A stretch of DNA of 31,727 bases from a virus: positions 1 through 31,727 of IMG/VR virus record IMGVR_UViG_3300047548_000637; one strand, 5' to 3'. The notes under the pieces are model-generated. The model ran no database searches. It was not told the origin of the DNA and worked only from the letters and a program-made list of their open reading frames with translations. Position numbers and translations under genes: made by a program. Every line of letters starts with the position of its first letter. Position 1 is the first letter of the stretch. Positions 3,250 through 31,727 of this stretch are shown here, in pieces.

Positions 3250-4853
3250 GCGGATAGCTCTTTGTAACTGGTGGCGACACTAACAAGGCGAACCTTTGCT
3301 GTACCTATAAGGGTAATTTGAAACCGGTAGCCAGAACCCCACGCCGGAAGGACGAAATCTTGGGGCTTTGTAACCGGTCGGCTTTCAATGATTCTATCAT
3401 CAACGCGCATTACGAACTGCTCTGGTCCACGGCTCAAGTGCATGTACGCGGCGCGGAAGTTTTTTACCGTCCCCGACACGATCTCAGGCGACACCCACTT
3501 ATGGGGGCGCAGGTCAGAGCCAGCGTTCCAGCGCAGGAGCTGGGTGTCTTTGAGCATGTAGAGTTCACCGTCGCCACCCGTAAGTGCGTAGGTCACGCGG
3601 TCCGACAGCCAGGAGTGTGAGTCTGCTTGCCAGCCGTTGTTCTCTAGGCCTGACAGCTGCATAACTGCGGATCGGCGCTCACCAAAGAGGTACAGGTAAC
3701 TGTTGTGGTACACCGGAAACACTTTGTTCGGTGGGTATTGATGCCAGTCTTCGGGAGCATACAGCGCCCAAGTCAGGAGCTTAGGTGTCTTGTTGCCAGA
3801 CAACACCACGAAGCCATCCTTGGCCGCGTAGCCTGCGCCGTGAGGCATGGATACCATGGTCGTGTTTACCATGGGGAACGCCTCTTGATGCACGATCACA
3901 TTGCGACAGCCTGCAGTTTTGCAGTCCGCTGATCCTTGGATCACCGCTGGTCTGCCCAAGGTAGCCACGTAAATCGTGTCACCACTTTCCGTGATCGCTT
4001 TTATCGTGTCGTCTACGTCGAGGAAGTACGGCCAATCGTCCATGTTGTTTGCATGACTAAAGTACACCCGCCGCCCGTCGAATCCTGCCAAACAGTTCAT
4101 ACTGGCGACGCGGCAGATACCTTTGAGTGTAGCCGGAGGAGGGCGCACAAAGTCTTCTTCAACAGCGTCGTCGAGACTCTCGAACGGCACGTTGAATGTG
4201 TAGGACACGTCACTAATCGGCACGTCAGCGATGATGAGACTGGACGTGTCCAGTGTGTTCATCGCTTCTTTACCTGACTCGTGGCCAGATACCGCTACCG
4301 ACAGGCGCACATGCGTGACCTGCCAAGACGGATCGGGAATAGCCCAACCGGACAGGATAACCGGTGTGCCTTCATTGAACGACAGGAGATCGCCAGCGGG
4401 TGACGGCTGACCGACCTTGCCGCGTGCGTTCACGTATTGGTAGGTGAACGTAGTGCTCAGCAGATCTTTGCTTGGTGTTGCGTTTGTTGCGATTGATGAC
4501 AGCTTGAACTCTGGGCACGGCACCCCAAGACGTGAGTACACAGGCTCGCAGTCTTCTCCAACAGTGCCGACTTCTGGGTAATCGTTGCGGCCTGTCACGT
4601 AGAAGTCGTTGCACAGGATAGGTCCATCAGTGACATCGACGCACGCATCGAACGGCAACCAGCAGCATCCAACGCGATGCACGCGTATAGTTCCAACAGG
4701 AACTGTTGCAATAGCACGAGGCTCACGCCAAGAGTCTAGCTCACCCGAGTGAAACTTGCAGTCCGTAGCCTCCGCGCTACCATGGGTAGGGATGAGGTGA
4801 TCGGCCAAGCGCGGTGTGCTGGCCTGGAAAAAATTAAAATGAAACCCTGCCAT
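3246..4853 (-). CDS. Tail nozzle-type protein (tail tubular protein B-like)
   Basis: A 535-residue beta-rich protein started by a TAATG overlap with the gene before it. Recognisable nozzle-family features are the strand TTFTYQYVNARGKVGQPSPA near residue 135, which matches the Tyr-x-Tyr-Val...Gly...Pro-Ser-Pro pattern of these proteins, and a propeller-like stretch around residues 255-300 containing GRRVYFSHANNMDDWPY followed by IKAITESGDTIYVATLGRPA. It is shorter than T7 gp12 (about 790 residues). The protein would form the lower part of the short tail, attached to the adaptor encoded by neighbouring genes. It contains a vicinal cysteine pair (GCCW near residue 65). Family assignment is from motif pattern and gene order, not a search. 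Confidence 0.72.
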   Translation of the reverse strand: MAGFHFNFFQASTPRLADHLIPTHGSAEATDCKFHSGELDSWREPRAIATVPVGTIRVHRVGCCWLPFDACVDVTDGPILCNDFYVTGRNDYPEVGTVGEDCEPVYSRLGVPCPEFKLSSIATNATPSKDLLSTTFTYQYVNARGKVGQPSPAGDLLSFNEGTPVILSGWAIPDPSWQVTHVRLSVAVSGHESGKEAMNTLDTSSLIIADVPISDVSYTFNVPFESLDDAVEEDFVRPPPATLKGICRVASMNCLAGFDGRRVYFSHANNMDDWPYFLDVDDTIKAITESGDTIYVATLGRPAVIQGSADCKTAGCRNVIVHQEAFPMVNTTMVSMPHGAGYAAKDGFVVLSGNKTPKLLTWALYAPEDWHQYPPNKVFPVYHNSYLYLFGERRSAVMQLSGLENNGWQADSHSWLSDRVTYALTGGDGELYMLKDTQLLRWNAGSDLRPHKWVSPEIVSGTVKNFRAAYMHLSRGPEQFVMRVDDRIIESRPVTKPQDFVLPAWGSGYRFQITLIGTAKVRLVSVATSYKELSA

Positions 4854-5599
4854 TATGGGATTCCTGCTGCGTCAACCCGTGTTTTCAATGTGTCGTGCGC
4901 TGCTTGCAACGCAGTCAAGTTTGTTTGCAGCAACGCAACCGTATTGGTCAAAGCATTGATGTTTGAGTCTTGGGTGGCTTGTTGCGCATTGAATGTGGCG
5001 ACTAAGCCTGCCGCGTCAAGCGTGATAGCGAGTGAGCCGTCCGTGTTTTTCACAAACGTCATCGCAATACCATTGTTGGTTAGCGACGGAGGATTGACAG
5101 TATGTATCGGCGGCCACCAGCTAGGAAGCTGCTGAACCAAACCGTTGTCAATGATGAACCCGCCTGTGATGTGGTCGAGGCCGCTGGGTGTAGCACCGTC
5201 GATCCCTGCTTCACCAGCAGGTATTGTGATGTTGAGTATGGCCGCATTGTTGGTACCTACGTTTACTACACTAGCAAGTGTGCCTGGCTGACCTGTCGAT
5301 ACAGTTCCGATGGTGATAGTGCCTGCTGCCCCCGCTTCACCTTGGGGGCCGTCAAGCCCAGCACTGCCTGACCCAGTGCCGTTACCGCTGGACGGGCAGC
5401 AAGGATCGGGGGTGTATAGGAATGGATCACCGGATTCGATATGAGAGATACACCCGGACGCGTTTGTGTGTATGGTTGCATTTGTATAAACCTGATTCGT
5501 TGGCAACCCGCACGTCGGCGTAGGCACAGACGTGATCGGTGGCGTAACCACGGGAACGGTTGTGTCGCATACAGGGTCCGTGCAGATTGGGTTTGCCAT
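4853..5599 (-). CDS. Collagen-like, coiled-coil virion protein (fibre or appendage)
   Basis: A 248-residue protein. The first 75 residues are rich in Pro, Thr and Cys (including DPCCPSS). A short Gly-X-Y-like run follows (GLDGPQGEAGAAGT, about residues 81-94), then more Gly-rich beta sequence with GIDGATPSG. The C-terminal 45 residues form a likely trimeric coiled coil (heptads of Leu/Ile/Val around NALTNTVALLQTNLTALQAA). Collagen-like repeats plus a C-terminal coiled coil are typical of trimeric phage fibres and appendages. The gene lies between adaptor-type and nozzle-type genes, so an accessory tail fibre or tail decoration is likely. The start lies just after the upstream stop, with only a weak ribosome binding site, suggesting translational coupling. 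Confidence 0.65.
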   Translation of the reverse strand: MANPICTDPVCDTTVPVVTPPITSVPTPTCGLPTNQVYTNATIHTNASGCISHIESGDPFLYTPDPCCPSSGNGTGSGSAGLDGPQGEAGAAGTITIGTVSTGQPGTLASVVNVGTNNAAILNITIPAGEAGIDGATPSGLDHITGGFIIDNGLVQQLPSWWPPIHTVNPPSLTNNGIAMTFVKNTDGSLAITLDAAGLVATFNAQQATQDSNINALTNTVALLQTNLTALQAAHDTLKTRVDAAGIP

Positions 5600-22661: not shown

Positions 22662-22762
22662 TATGCTGGGCTAGTTCGGACTTAATTACTCCGAGCGAAA
22701 GCGGCGAGCTTCCCGCGCTGTTGCCCTACTATCATACCGGGTTGTGTTTAGGAAGAAACATT

Positions 22763-23374
22763 ATGGGTAAAGCCGCTAATTTATCGGGTGTTGTTTTTGA
22801 GCGCCTAACTGCGCTTCGACGTGTGGAGCGGGTGTCTAACCATGCGCACTGGCTGTGTCTATGCGTATGTGGTTCTGAAAAAATTGTATCTGCTACAAAC
22901 TTAAAGACGGGGCATACCCGCTCTTGTGGATGTATGCCTAGTAAACCTGCACCGCCTAGAGAAAATAAATCTACCGCTATGCCGGGGTACTCATCTTGGG
23001 CGGCTATGATTAACCGCTGTACAGACCCCAAACATGATAATTATGCGCACTATAGTAGTGCAGGTATTACTGTTTGCGCTGAGTGGCTTTCAGACTTTCA
23101 AGCTTTTATTTCTCATATAGGCCCTAAGCCTACAAGCAAGCATAGCGTTGACCGTATTGACAACGCCAAAGGCTACGAGCCTGGCAATGTGCGTTGGGCT
23201 ACAAGCATTGAACAGGCAGCAAATAGAAAGAACACTGCTATGGTGGTGTATCAGGGTGTTAGCCAGCCGTTGTCTCTGCTGGCTCGTTCACATGGGCTAT
23301 GCCCTATGCTAGTAAACAAACGGGTGGTCCGCCGTGGATGGTCTGTAGAAAAGGCACTAGGCCTTTCTACCTGA
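22763..23374 (+). CDS. Free-standing HNH endonuclease (probable homing nuclease)
   Basis: I take the ATG at 22763-22765, preceded by AGGA, giving 203 residues. An N-terminal domain has MGKAANLSGVVFERLTAL with Cys32, Cys34, Cys36, Cys55 and Cys57, a zinc-ribbon-like layout that is usual in this group. The catalytic part has HSVDRIDNAKGYEPGNVRWA, where His127, Asp130 and Asn134 form the HNH core, preceded by YSSWAAMINRC and NYAHYSSAG. Phage HNH enzymes of this type are mobile and spread by cutting phage genomes that lack them. It is on the strand opposite to all neighbours, overlaps the portal stop by eight bases, and looks AT-richer. Confidence 0.88.
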   Translation: MGKAANLSGVVFERLTALRRVERVSNHAHWLCLCVCGSEKIVSATNLKTGHTRSCGCMPSKPAPPRENKSTAMPGYSSWAAMINRCTDPKHDNYAHYSSAGITVCAEWLSDFQAFISHIGPKPTSKHSVDRIDNAKGYEPGNVRWATSIEQAANRKNTAMVVYQGVSQPLSLLARSHGLCPMLVNKRVVRRGWSVEKALGLST

Positions 23375-29137: not shown

Positions 29138-29211
29138 TCTAGCAGTCGTGTTTATTGCTTTGGTTGCTATTAAATTGATAGCAACTTCTGGATCATGGCC
29201 TTTGGCCCCGC
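29138..29211. repeat. 74-bp repeat, copy 1, with two hairpins
   Basis: Matches the copy at 29252 in 70 of 74 positions by eye. Contains GTTGCTAT / ATAGCAAC with a 7-base loop (29163-29185) and GGCC-TTT-GGCC (29197-29207). Confidence 0.9.
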
Positions 29212-29251
29212 CTGTCCAGGACTGTGGCTTTTGTACAACAGGTGGTAGGGG

Positions 29252-29325
29252 TCTAGCAGTCGTGTTTATTGCTTAGTATGCTATTAAATTGATAGCAACT
29301 TCTGGATCAAGGCCTTTGGCCCCGC
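29252..29325. repeat. 74-bp repeat, copy 2
   Basis: Same unit, 40 bp after the first. The first hairpin is shortened by one pair set (TGCTAT / ATAGCA), and the second hairpin GGCC-TTT-GGCC is kept. Confidence 0.9.
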
Positions 29326-29412
29326 GCCACCAGGACTAGGGTAGGAGGAGAGCTGTTCTTTTATTCACACATACACGCGCGCATAGTGCGGCGTGGGGGG
29401 TGCATTTCACTC

Positions 29413-29435
29413 GCTAGGCGCTAGGCGCTAGGCGC
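29413..29435. repeat. Tandem GCTAGGC repeat (three copies)
   Basis: GCTAGGC occurs three times head to tail (29413-29433), followed by GC. A 7-bp unit in a non-coding control region may be a protein-binding site or a slippage product. Confidence 0.8.
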
Positions 29436-29442
29436 GGGGGGT

Positions 29443-29503
29443 CTCGAAACCGTTACAACAATCCACCAGCTCGAAACCGTTACAAACTGTTACAACTATC
29501 CAC
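29443..29503. promoter_or_regulatory. GTTACAA boxes before the early operon
   Basis: CTCGAAACCGTTACAA occurs twice (29443, 29470), and GTTACAA boxes lie at 29452, 29479 and 29489. AATCCAC and TATCCAC follow two of them. The last pair forms GTTACAAACTGTTACA, two half-sites one helical turn apart. They lie 65-115 bases before the first early ATG and could bind a regulator or replication protein. A weak TATAGT (29527-29532) follows. Confidence 0.5.
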
Positions 29504-29567: not shown

Positions 29568-29786
29568 ATGATTATTTTCCGCAAGTCAACCAATACCAAT
29601 AGCTTCGGGCTACGTGGCTACTGGGCGCACGACAAAGCTACGCTTAGCCTATGGTCATTTGCTACTAGCAACGACCTTGCTATCGGTGATGATGTGAACC
29701 CGCGTGACTACGAGCTGCCGCGCGTAGAGGTACAGTTTCAAACTGTTACACATTTCGACGGATTTTTAAACGTTATTGCCTCATAA
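29568..29786 (+). CDS. Small early protein, unknown
   Basis: A 72-residue protein with GGAG eleven bases before ATG. Mixed strand and helix pattern (IIFRKSTNTNSFGLRGYWAH, then KATLSLWSFATSNDLAIGDD and strand EVQFQTVTHFDG). No family recognised. It is the first gene of a three-gene rightward group that ends at a strong terminator. A GTTTCAAACTGTTACA motif lies inside it at 29735-29750. Confidence 0.6.
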   Translation: MIIFRKSTNTNSFGLRGYWAHDKATLSLWSFATSNDLAIGDDVNPRDYELPRVEVQFQTVTHFDGFLNVIAS

Positions 29787-29812
29787 TAGAGGACTCACAA
29801 CAGGAGCTTAAT

Positions 29813-30106
29813 ATGATTTACATCAACATGGAAACCAACAATGTACCAGCTGCATTGACCGAGCTAAAAGCCATTGGCTTCACGTTCATTACCAGTCGTG
29901 AAGCACAGCCATGGGACGGCAGGCCGCCGGAGACACTGATTATTGCCAGCATCCCTGACTGGTCGATTCATACCGAGCGCGCATTGCGTCGCATTGCAGC
30001 GAACCACGACCAAGATTGCATTGCTGTGCGTTTTTCGCATGGTGTTGGTAAGACCGTAGGTGCCAAGCCAGTGGTTTACAGCGAAGATTTTTTCTCAACT
30101 AAATAG
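29813..30106 (+). CDS. Small early protein, unknown
   Basis: A 97-residue protein with GGAGC before ATG. It starts MIYINMETNNVPAALTELKA and has strand-helix features (WDGRPPETLIIASIPDWSIH, then ERALRRIAANHDQDCIAVRF). The predicted fold is compact alpha/beta. The gene is second in the rightward early group. No family recognised; the role is unknown. Confidence 0.6.
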   Translation: MIYINMETNNVPAALTELKAIGFTFITSREAQPWDGRPPETLIIASIPDWSIHTERALRRIAANHDQDCIAVRFSHGVGKTVGAKPVVYSEDFFSTK

Positions 30107-30115
30107 GAGCATACT

Positions 30116-30337
30116 ATGCATGGCTTAAATACTATATATTCACTGAATGAAGAGGCTGCGCGTTTCGAGTACGACCGCAAGCTGAAGGATTTAAAAAACA
30201 AGGGTTTGATTGTCGTATGGAAGCAGGACGACTTAGGGCTGTGTGACATCACCGCCCCACCCTTGGGCTTTGAGACTGTGGCTTTGGCACAACAGTCCGT
30301 GTTAGGGAAGGAGGGCAACTGGCAAATATTGAAATAA
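30116..30337 (+). CDS. Small early protein, unknown
   Basis: A 73-residue protein with AGGAG seven bases before ATG. Sequence is MHGLNTIYSLNEEAARFEYD, charged helix, then DLKNKGLIVVWKQDDLGLCD and a mixed end. It is the last gene before the terminator at 30356. No family recognised. Confidence 0.6.
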   Translation: MHGLNTIYSLNEEAARFEYDRKLKDLKNKGLIVVWKQDDLGLCDITAPPLGFETVALAQQSVLGKEGNWQILK

Positions 30338-30355: not shown

Positions 30356-30394
30356 AAGCCCCACGCTTTTTGATTAAGGCGTGGGGCTTTTGCT
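30356..30394 (+). terminator. Strong rho-independent terminator
   Basis: An 11-bp stem (AAGCCCCACGC / GCGTGGGGCTT) with a 12-base loop, followed by TTTTGCTTT. It ends the first early group, 18 bases after the stop of the 73-residue gene. Confidence 0.85.
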
Positions 30395-30400
30395 TTAAAT

Positions 30401-30557
30401 AAAAATAAAACAAAAAGATATATTGGTAATCAGCCCCAATCCTATCGTAAAAAGTGCTATTTTATATTCTATTATTTTCTCGCGTGTAATAAGATAATAT
30501 AAGGTCTGTAATGAAAGCCTTTGAACAAACTCCAATATATCTTTTTGTTTTATTTTT
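30401..30557. repeat. 157-bp AT-rich element with 26-bp perfect inverted repeats
   Basis: Bases 30401-30426 and 30532-30557 are exact reverse complements over 26 bases, with 105 bases between. A second imperfect inverted repeat (TTATATT...TTATT / AATAA...AATATAA, 30462-30502) is nested inside. It may be a cruciform-forming origin, a small mobile element or an RNA structure. Confidence 0.9.
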
Positions 30558-30576
30558 CTTTTGTGGTATACTATGA
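30511..30576 (+). CDS. Possible 21-residue hydrophobic peptide gene
   Basis: MKAFEQTPIYLFVLFFFCGI plus Leu, with AAGG six bases before ATG. The hydrophobic part is coded by the T-rich right repeat arm, so chance is a real alternative: T-rich DNA always reads as Phe/Leu. If translated it would be a single-span membrane peptide or leader. Confidence 0.25.
   Translation: MKAFEQTPIYLFVLFFFCGIL
30545..30572 (+). promoter_or_regulatory. Extended -10 promoter for the second early group
   Basis: TGGTATACT (TGN-TATACT, -10 at 30567-30572) with TTGTTT 16 bases upstream (30545-30550, three of six matches). The start site would be about 30579, a short leader before the ATG at 30602. The -35 overlaps the right arm of the inverted repeat. 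Confidence 0.45.
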
Positions 30577-30601
30577 ACTCATAAATCCAAAGGCTTAAAG
30601 C

Positions 30602-31003
30602 ATGAATCTCCCTTCTTATCTCAAATTGACAGAATCCGAACGCGCCTTCGAGTTAAAGCGCCGACAGTTAAAAGCCGCCTTGTCAGAGGCCACCGCCGCG
30701 ACCAAGAGACGGACATCACCCACAAAACCCGTGGATATGCTGACACCCACCCAACTAAGGCAATTCGAGAAGTTGACCGCAGGACGAACACTCACTATGC
30801 CCGACGTTCACAATATAAAGTCATATGGTAAGTTCAAAGAACAACGGGCAGAGTGTCAGCGCCGATTCGACCTGAATCAAAAATACTATGCTGACACCCT
30901 AGCGGCTCAACACCAGCGCCAAGAGCTGCAGCGAGCAGAACAGGCAGCACGCCAAGCATACGCCGACCACCTAAACACAGCACCAGCGAGCGACCTCGAA
31001 TGA
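30602..31003 (+). CDS. Helical charged early protein, unknown
   Basis: A 133-residue protein with AAAGG nine bases before ATG. It is helical and charged (SERAFELKRRQLKAALSEAT, then a basic TKRRTSPTKPV stretch and FKEQRAECQRRFDLNQKYYA and QELQRAEQAARQAYA). Coiled coil and a central basic region suggest a DNA- or protein-binding role. No family recognised. The next small frame overlaps its stop by ATGA. Confidence 0.65.
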   Translation: MNLPSYLKLTESERAFELKRRQLKAALSEATAATKRRTSPTKPVDMLTPTQLRQFEKLTAGRTLTMPDVHNIKSYGKFKEQRAECQRRFDLNQKYYADTLAAQHQRQELQRAEQAARQAYADHLNTAPASDLE

Positions 31004-31144
31004 GCGTACGCCAAGAGTTAGCAGTCCTAATACACTGCCGCCCTACGCATAGAGCGCATCAAGGCGGACTTCGCCGCACTCACACCGCGAGCCAAGGCGG
31101 AATTGTTACAAACGCTTACACTTTCCGCTAACCAAACGGAATAA
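31000..31144 (+). pseudogene. Small gene with an apparent +1 frameshift
   Basis: ATG at 31000 overlaps the previous stop (ATGA) and starts MSVRQELAVLIH, but this frame becomes unlike a protein after that. From about 31036 the +1 frame gives RIERIKADFAALTPRAKAEL and then LQTLTLSANQTE, ending at TAA 31142-31144. Together they would be a natural small helical protein of about 48 residues. A one-base change near 31030-31040 (mutation, sequencing error or programmed shift) would explain this. Confidence 0.5.
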
Positions 31145-31183: not shown

Positions 31184-31453
31184 ATGTACCAAGGTCACTT
31201 GCCCAACGCGTCACCCATCCAACGCCACAGCGTTGACGACAGCGTTTTCCCATACGTAATAATCTACCGTGCCCCCGTCTCGAACGCGTGGTTCATACGG
31301 ACACCGAGCGGGACGGTGCTACCAACACCCTACGACACACACCAGCAGGCTGAGGCCGCTATTAAAACGCTCAAGTACGCAGCCTTGAACGACAGCGGCA
31401 GCAACACAGAGTTAATAAGGCGCGTTAACGCAGCAATCAAGGAAGCACAATGA
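31184..31453 (+). CDS. Small early protein, unknown
   Basis: An 89-residue protein with AGGAG before ATG. The centre has VFPYVIIYRAPVSNAWFIRT (beta hairpin) and a helical C-terminus (QQAEAAIKTLKYAAL, then ELIRRVNAAIKEAQ). This pattern of a short sheet then helices recalls small phage proteins of unknown role. It overlaps the next start by ATGA. Confidence 0.6.
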   Translation: MYQGHLPNASPIQRHSVDDSVFPYVIIYRAPVSNAWFIRTPSGTVLPTPYDTHQQAEAAIKTLKYAALNDSGSNTELIRRVNAAIKEAQ

Positions 31454-31727
31454 TAACCACACTTAACCAAATCCGTTCGCACTCACCCTGCATAGAGGGC
31501 TGGACTAAGCTCTTAAAGCACCTAGGCAAGGCCACAGCCGATGACGAACCACTCAGCCTTCTGACCGTTCTCAACAGTAACGGCTTGGACGATGCAATCT
31601 GGTGCTTACGCACCGAGGCCACGCCTGAGCGCATCCAGCGCTTCGCCTTGGCCGTGGCCAGACGTGTTGAGCACCTGCACCCGCAGACCAAGGCCACACT
31701 AGACATCGTGGAGCGTTACCTAAGAGG
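31450..31727 (+). CDS. Conserved phage/plasmid-type hypothetical protein, cut at the window end
   Basis: ATG at 31450 overlaps the previous stop. The 92 residues seen include NQIRSHSPCIEGWTKLLKHL, GKATADDEPLSLLTVLNSNG and LDDAIWCLRTE, a pattern I recognise from phage and plasmid proteins of unknown function, in which 'NQIR.H.PC..GW.KLL..LGK...DD.PLSL..IL..NGLDDA.WCLR' is conserved. The C-terminus is beyond the window. The role is unknown. Confidence 0.7.
   Translation, partial: MITTLNQIRSHSPCIEGWTKLLKHLGKATADDEPLSLLTVLNSNGLDDAIWCLRTEATPERIQRFALAVARRVEHLHPQTKATLDIVERYLR

Follow-up and report, generated by a model that had tools for sequence, protein, structure and literature searches.

A perfect inverted repeat enclosing AT-rich DNA between two early operons of a phage contig raises the question of what this element does, and the initial annotation had offered three answers: a replication origin, a small non-autonomous mobile element, or a stem that controls the next operon. 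We addressed this question in the linear contig of IMG/VR record IMGVR_UViG_3300047548_000637, which was taken whole as the window (31,727 bp) and came from an uncultured, probably short-tailed group of phages. The structural genes between 852 and 29084 are nearly all transcribed leftward, with late-module products comprising a portal or head-tail adaptor, TerL, TerS, an internal virion protein, an endolysin, and a holin, and the small early genes run rightward starting at 29568. A blastn search against 50,697 phage records returned no match to the window, and the closest characterized TerL showed 42% identity. In addition, an HNH endonuclease gene (22721-23374, plus strand) was observed on the opposite strand between the late genes; the DNA alignments of three relatives (L004, L005, and L012) are gapped at this gene, and thus these relatives appear to be without it.

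The coordinates and exact complementarity of the two 26-bp arms, 105 bases apart, were confirmed (table 1), and when the arms were extended to 30 bases, 29 of 30 positions paired (30397-30426 with 30532-30561); the nested inverted repeat that had been reported between them is present but imperfect. The judgment that such a repeat is far beyond chance also held, as the longest perfect arm among 2000 sequences of 220 bp, simulated to equal composition with a first-order Markov model, was 16. Likewise, perfect inverted repeats with arms of at least 20 bp and a short span were observed only three times in 86 loci covering 1.34 Mb of the window and related phages, namely those of the window and the relative L011 and one in L068 that is GC-rich. 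The AT-rich character was equally borne out, since the element has the lowest GC content of any 165-bp stretch in the contig (24.8%), compared with 38.8% for the next lowest stretch elsewhere and 53% for the contig. No direct repeats or iterons were found in the window element. When the suggested folding was run, the z-scores were -5 to -7 for the window element and -14 to -15 for that of L011, and the RNA folds were strong on both strands. An inverted amplification chimera was rejected, because the repeat is internal, its flanks are unique, and the L011 contig has an inverted repeat of its own.

Table 1. Positions of the inverted-repeat element, its neighbors, and related features in the window and its relatives.
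Feature	Sequence	Position	Strand	Remark
First early operon (P0004, P0003, P0002)	window	29568..30337	+	neutral strand composition, A+C about 0.50-0.51
Intrinsic terminator of first early operon	window	30356..30389	+	14 pairs, 8 GC; directly left of element
Left arm	window	30401..30426	+	perfect over 26 bp; one mismatch over 30397-30426
Spacer	window	30427..30531		AT-rich, non-coding, 105 bp, 30% GC
Nested imperfect inverted repeat	window	30462..30502		15-nt arms (30462-30476 / 30488-30502), 87%, 11-nt loop
Right arm	window	30532..30557	+	exact reverse complement of left arm; one mismatch if extended to 30561
Extended -10 promoter TG-G-TATACT	window	30564..30572	+	resembles the other early promoters of the group
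P0001 gene	window	30602..31003	+	133-aa helical protein, directly downstream of element
A+C change-point	window	30561..30702		best 30576; right arm ends 30557
Arms of counterpart element	L011	5000-5039 / 5194-5233		perfect over 40 bp; one mismatch over 51 bp
A+C change-point	L011	5021		supported 5036-4962; inside right arm (5039-5000)
Heptamer tandem array CGCTAGG x3.4	window	29412..29435		upstream of first early promoter
Heptamer array TTAGGGC x6	L007	726-767		upstream of first early promoter
Heptamer array CAGCCCA x9	L009	1143-1206		upstream of first early promoter
Heptamer array TAGGGCT x9	L011	6130-6192		upstream of first early promoter
Heptamer array GCCCAGC x8	L013	772-830		upstream of first early promoter

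We then compared the locus among relatives. A TerL search of viral contigs yielded ten close contigs, nine of which (L003 to L009, L012, and L013) stop short of the inverted repeat; even L003, with 99.6% DNA identity to the window, ends before it. The sole relative found to span the early region was L011, another metagenome contig with a TerL identity of 69%, and both it and the window are fragments. Searches of viral contigs with P0001, P0002, P0003, and P0005 found no relative covering the inverted repeat, the P0001 family was represented among 28 related records by L011 only, and no comparable repeat was found in a scan of five characterized phages with related TerL proteins.

In L011, a longer perfect inverted repeat (table 1) surrounds a 154-bp spacer of 21% GC, which is more AT-rich than that of the window, and this element is also the lowest-GC stretch of its contig (23.6%, vs 33.3% for the next lowest). 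It is preceded by the orthologue of P0003 and by a hairpin rich in GC (about 5258-5235) that occupies the same place as the window terminator, and 18 nt separate the arm of the element from the ATG of a P0001 orthologue of 129 aa (4592-4981), with which P0001 aligned end to end in a single pairwise comparison (29% identity, E 5e-5). The two elements have no alignable sequence in common, nor did they share iterons or a conserved protein box. Since such inverted repeats are rare, their presence at homologous places is not a matter of chance. Thus, in these two genomes, the place and the form of the element were kept and the sequence was not; the prospect that related phages lack the repeat was borne out for its sequence but not for its form in the one relative available. 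A 9-mer, CAGCCCCAA, lies beside the left arm in both elements and was discounted, as such a match is not unlikely by chance, and an AT-rich inverted repeat in L078 was set aside as a different thing, an array of CTTAACTG/CAGTTAAG repeats. Elsewhere in L011, a duplicated early-gene family (178-696 and 1675-2237; LNAIR..TEGWAKLLKHLGK..) with Ala-rich repetitive tails matched the DNA of the window right end (31450-31694).

The different inverted repeat at the same place in L011 bears directly on the proposed mobile element, which would be a MITE inserted between the terminator and the promoter, because two unrelated insertions would then be needed. The length of 157-165 bp, the terminal 26-bp repeats, and the AT-rich, non-coding sequence would suit a MITE; however, the L011 arms are without a target-site duplication, and the window has only a 4-bp CTTT, which is offset by 4 bp and was equalled by half of the shuffled flanks. 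Copies were sought with searches that caught exact or near matches only. At these sensitivities, the arm sequence was single copy in the contig, the exact arm was absent from the scanned viral contigs, the arm-spacer-arm pattern was absent from the scanned bacterial and archaeal genomes, and blastn of the region against phages and plasmids gave no match. We therefore regard the mobile element as a disfavored and very unlikely explanation. Even less probable is an invertible switch (inverton), in which a recombinase would flip the spacer between the arms. Such inversion would keep the arms identical, and perfect arms of suitable size flanking a short spacer are compatible with it; nevertheless, the window promoter lies outside the arms and would be unmoved by flipping, the arms are unrelated between the two relatives, unlike a common recombinase site, and the window proteins that were scanned included no recombinase.

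The element divides two operons in both genomes, which raised the possibility that the first early operon is insulated from its successor by the terminator and the inverted repeat. In an RNA version, the read-through transcript would form a long double-stranded hairpin acting as an RNase III site or a 3' block; in a DNA version, the right arm would carry or hide the -35 of the next promoter; and a change in strand composition at the element would merely mirror two expression classes. The strong RNA folds on both strands agree with such a boundary, as does the flanking arrangement in the window, where the strong terminator and the extended -10 promoter reported by the initial annotation were both recovered directly to the left and right. 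The sequence downstream of the -10, TATACTATgAACTCAtaAAtCC, resembles the early promoters of relatives (e.g., TATACTATCAACTCACCAACCC in L009), and a plain sigma-70 scan did not list this promoter. Its -35 position (about 30544-30549, TTTGTT) lies inside the right arm, as had been claimed, but matches the consensus poorly, and between the arms there was one weak, chance-level minus-strand promoter match. Several observations argued against the boundary. We infer that transcription in the window starts near 30579, downstream of the repeat, and the next mRNA would thus be without it; in L011, no promoter was visible in the few nucleotides between the arm and the gene. Moreover, among the 81 stem positions pooled from the two elements, 79 were Watson-Crick pairs, 2 were mismatches, and none was G-T, although RNA would tolerate G-U, and the identity of the arms looks maintained at the DNA level. 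The repeat itself, with its 105-nt loop and AT-rich arms, is unlike an intrinsic terminator, and Rfam gave no family at gathering score, its matches being chance or generic long hairpins (the miRNA-like matches of L011 were far under cut-offs and reflect the long hairpin). The RNA form of this reading was weakened by the start downstream of the repeat and by the lack of G-U pairs. Control of the next operon by a stem therefore keeps the overlap of the right arm with the -35 position in its favor and has the missing L011 promoter against it, and we consider it a serious rival, the main one, possible but rather doubtful. TGTTACA boxes, often paired about 10 bp apart (AAACTGTTACA), were also observed upstream of several early promoters (window 29472-29494 and 31098-31120, L007 706-725, and L009 497-516), and are possible activator or repressor sites.

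As an independent signal, the strand composition also changed at the element. In both genomes, top-strand A+C stepped from 0.40 in the leftward genes that adjoin the early region to 0.51 in the first early operon and then to 0.61-0.62 on the right of the inverted repeat, giving three levels, and the levels on either side of the repeat were nearly equal between the window and L011. The change-points at the repeat (table 1) had likelihood gains of 12.7 in the window and 23.9 in L011, compared with permutation maxima of 8.0 and 7.3, and the left/right difference at four-fold sites was significant in both genomes (p 0.006 and 5e-6). Transcription direction failed to explain this change, since both sides of the repeat are transcribed rightward. 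Gene identity also failed: P0002 and P0004, to the left of the window repeat, had third-position AT skews of +0.07 and -0.28, and their homologues, to the right of the L011 repeat and transcribed in the same direction, had skews of +0.51 and +0.49. Codon usage or expression class could nevertheless account for the skew. The neutral A+C level is inexact across the group, as the first-operon stretches of the partial relatives L007, L009, and L013 ranged from 0.46 to 0.57. The leftward late genes (window 852-29084) showed a position-dependent strand bias, as their four-fold AT skew increased from left to right, in the direction of the early region, with rho 0.68 and p 1e-5. The A,C-rich strand runs away from the element, which reverses the leading-strand bias usual in bacteria; read by bacterial convention, the element would be a terminus rather than an origin.

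A second composition change was placed at 29441 in the window, at the early/late divergence, and at 6538 in L011. In five related phages, tandem arrays of heptamers are found shortly before the first early promoter (table 1), and they represent a second feature conserved in form, with a constant period of 7 and a different unit sequence. The distance from the array to the second change-point is short in the window and about 350 bp in L011. These features make the array region a rival origin site: the true origin could be at the divergence (about 29.41-29.5 kb), with the inverted repeat in a secondary role as a lagging-strand initiation hairpin, a fork barrier, or a second start. Ceduovirus origins, which lie at the early/late junction (PMC7150918), would agree with such a position; however, the window array is short, no array was detected in L004, and the AT-rich minimum lies outside the array region, and we consider this placement quite unlikely. 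In the same late/early non-coding gap, an 86-bp direct repeat with 91% identity was observed (window 29138-29223 and 29252-29337).

Taken together, the results from the two genomes suggest that the inverted repeat is a real cis element that is probably functional. The AT minimum, the change in composition, and the conservation of place all agree with a DNA site, and we tentatively favor a cis-acting site whose shape would count for more than its sequence and that is most likely a core part of the replication-start region of the phage. In both the window and L011, no other part of the contig has a GC content as low as that of this non-coding early-region element, and a composition change-point lies at the right edge of the repeat. 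On the other side, iterons are lacking in the window element, its visible promoter reads away from the AT region, and no replication protein was recognized on either contig, both of which are fragments. We kept the origin assignment at this tentative level because of the opposite skew sign, the lack of replication genes, and the second change near 29.44 kb. Thus, the initial proposal of a replication origin gains support from the kept place and form, the AT minimum, and the composition change, and stays a tentative reading.

Cruciform extrusion from duplex DNA unaided is unlikely with a spacer of 105-154 bp, and a hairpin should therefore form on single-stranded DNA or RNA. We proposed that the AT-rich spacer might melt or become exposed as single-stranded DNA, whereupon the arms could pair to form a hairpin in the displaced strand or the lagging strand. 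This hairpin might be recognized by its shape or by a fast-evolving phage protein, for which P0001, helical in a low-confidence AlphaFold model, is an unproven candidate. The hairpin would mark the loading or strand-switch point of the replication machinery, and template switching between the arms during replication could re-perfect the repeat while its letters drift between relatives. In its fullest version, which we regard as unlikely, a replication-start or replichore-boundary element would be selected for its form alone, an AT-rich core enclosed by a long perfect hairpin, with its sequence free to turn over through template switching, and would bound a small neutral early cassette with the heptamer array on the opposite side. 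If the element is an origin, similarity searches between relatives would miss such origins, whereas a search for form, combining a long inverted repeat, an AT minimum, and a composition change, would find them; this would open a way to the origins of uncultured phages and offer a clean system in which to ask if a replication start site can be specified by shape alone.

Several known systems share parts of this arrangement. In T7, promoters of the phage polymerase read through the AT cluster of the origin, whereas the window promoter reads away from its AT stretch and no phage RNA polymerase was recognized on the window contig. The likeness to the T7 primary origin, an AT-rich cluster (3761-3821) among early genes (PMC12839067), is one of position and composition. 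In the herpesvirus oriS and oriL, inversely oriented arms flank an AT-rich spacer and form a hairpin on unwinding (PMC12543377); this is an analogy only, as the herpesvirus arms contain boxes for an origin-binding helicase, whereas the arms of the window and L011 are unrelated to each other and have no known protein of this kind. Bacterial MITEs and other small palindromic elements resemble the window element in being short and non-coding with terminal inverted repeats like its 26-bp arms, but the window element showed no target duplication and no further copies in the searches, and a different sequence stands at its place in L011. Template switching is a known process that perfects quasi-palindromes (PMC7202029), and would account for perfect arms without sequence conservation, although it is a mutational process and not a function, and its action here is proposed. 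A parallel in organization is found in the Ceduovirus phages c2 and bIL67, in which a non-coding stretch also lies by the early promoters and the early and late modules also diverge. Their origins differ in being at the divergence itself, in lacking a long inverted repeat (none of at least 11 bp in c2 and one of 14 bp in bIL67), and in having a function proven by plasmid replication, whereas that of the window element is inferred. The expected flanks of a c2-type origin are the first two early promoters, and the window element has an early promoter on its right and a whole early operon on its left; the window region gave no blastn match in phages that would relate it to the c2 or bIL67 origin. 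Nevertheless, the origin types of the c2 group lie between early promoters at the same place with no sequence in common (PMC7150918), and Ceduovirus thus sets a precedent for origins that stay in one place while their sequence changes.
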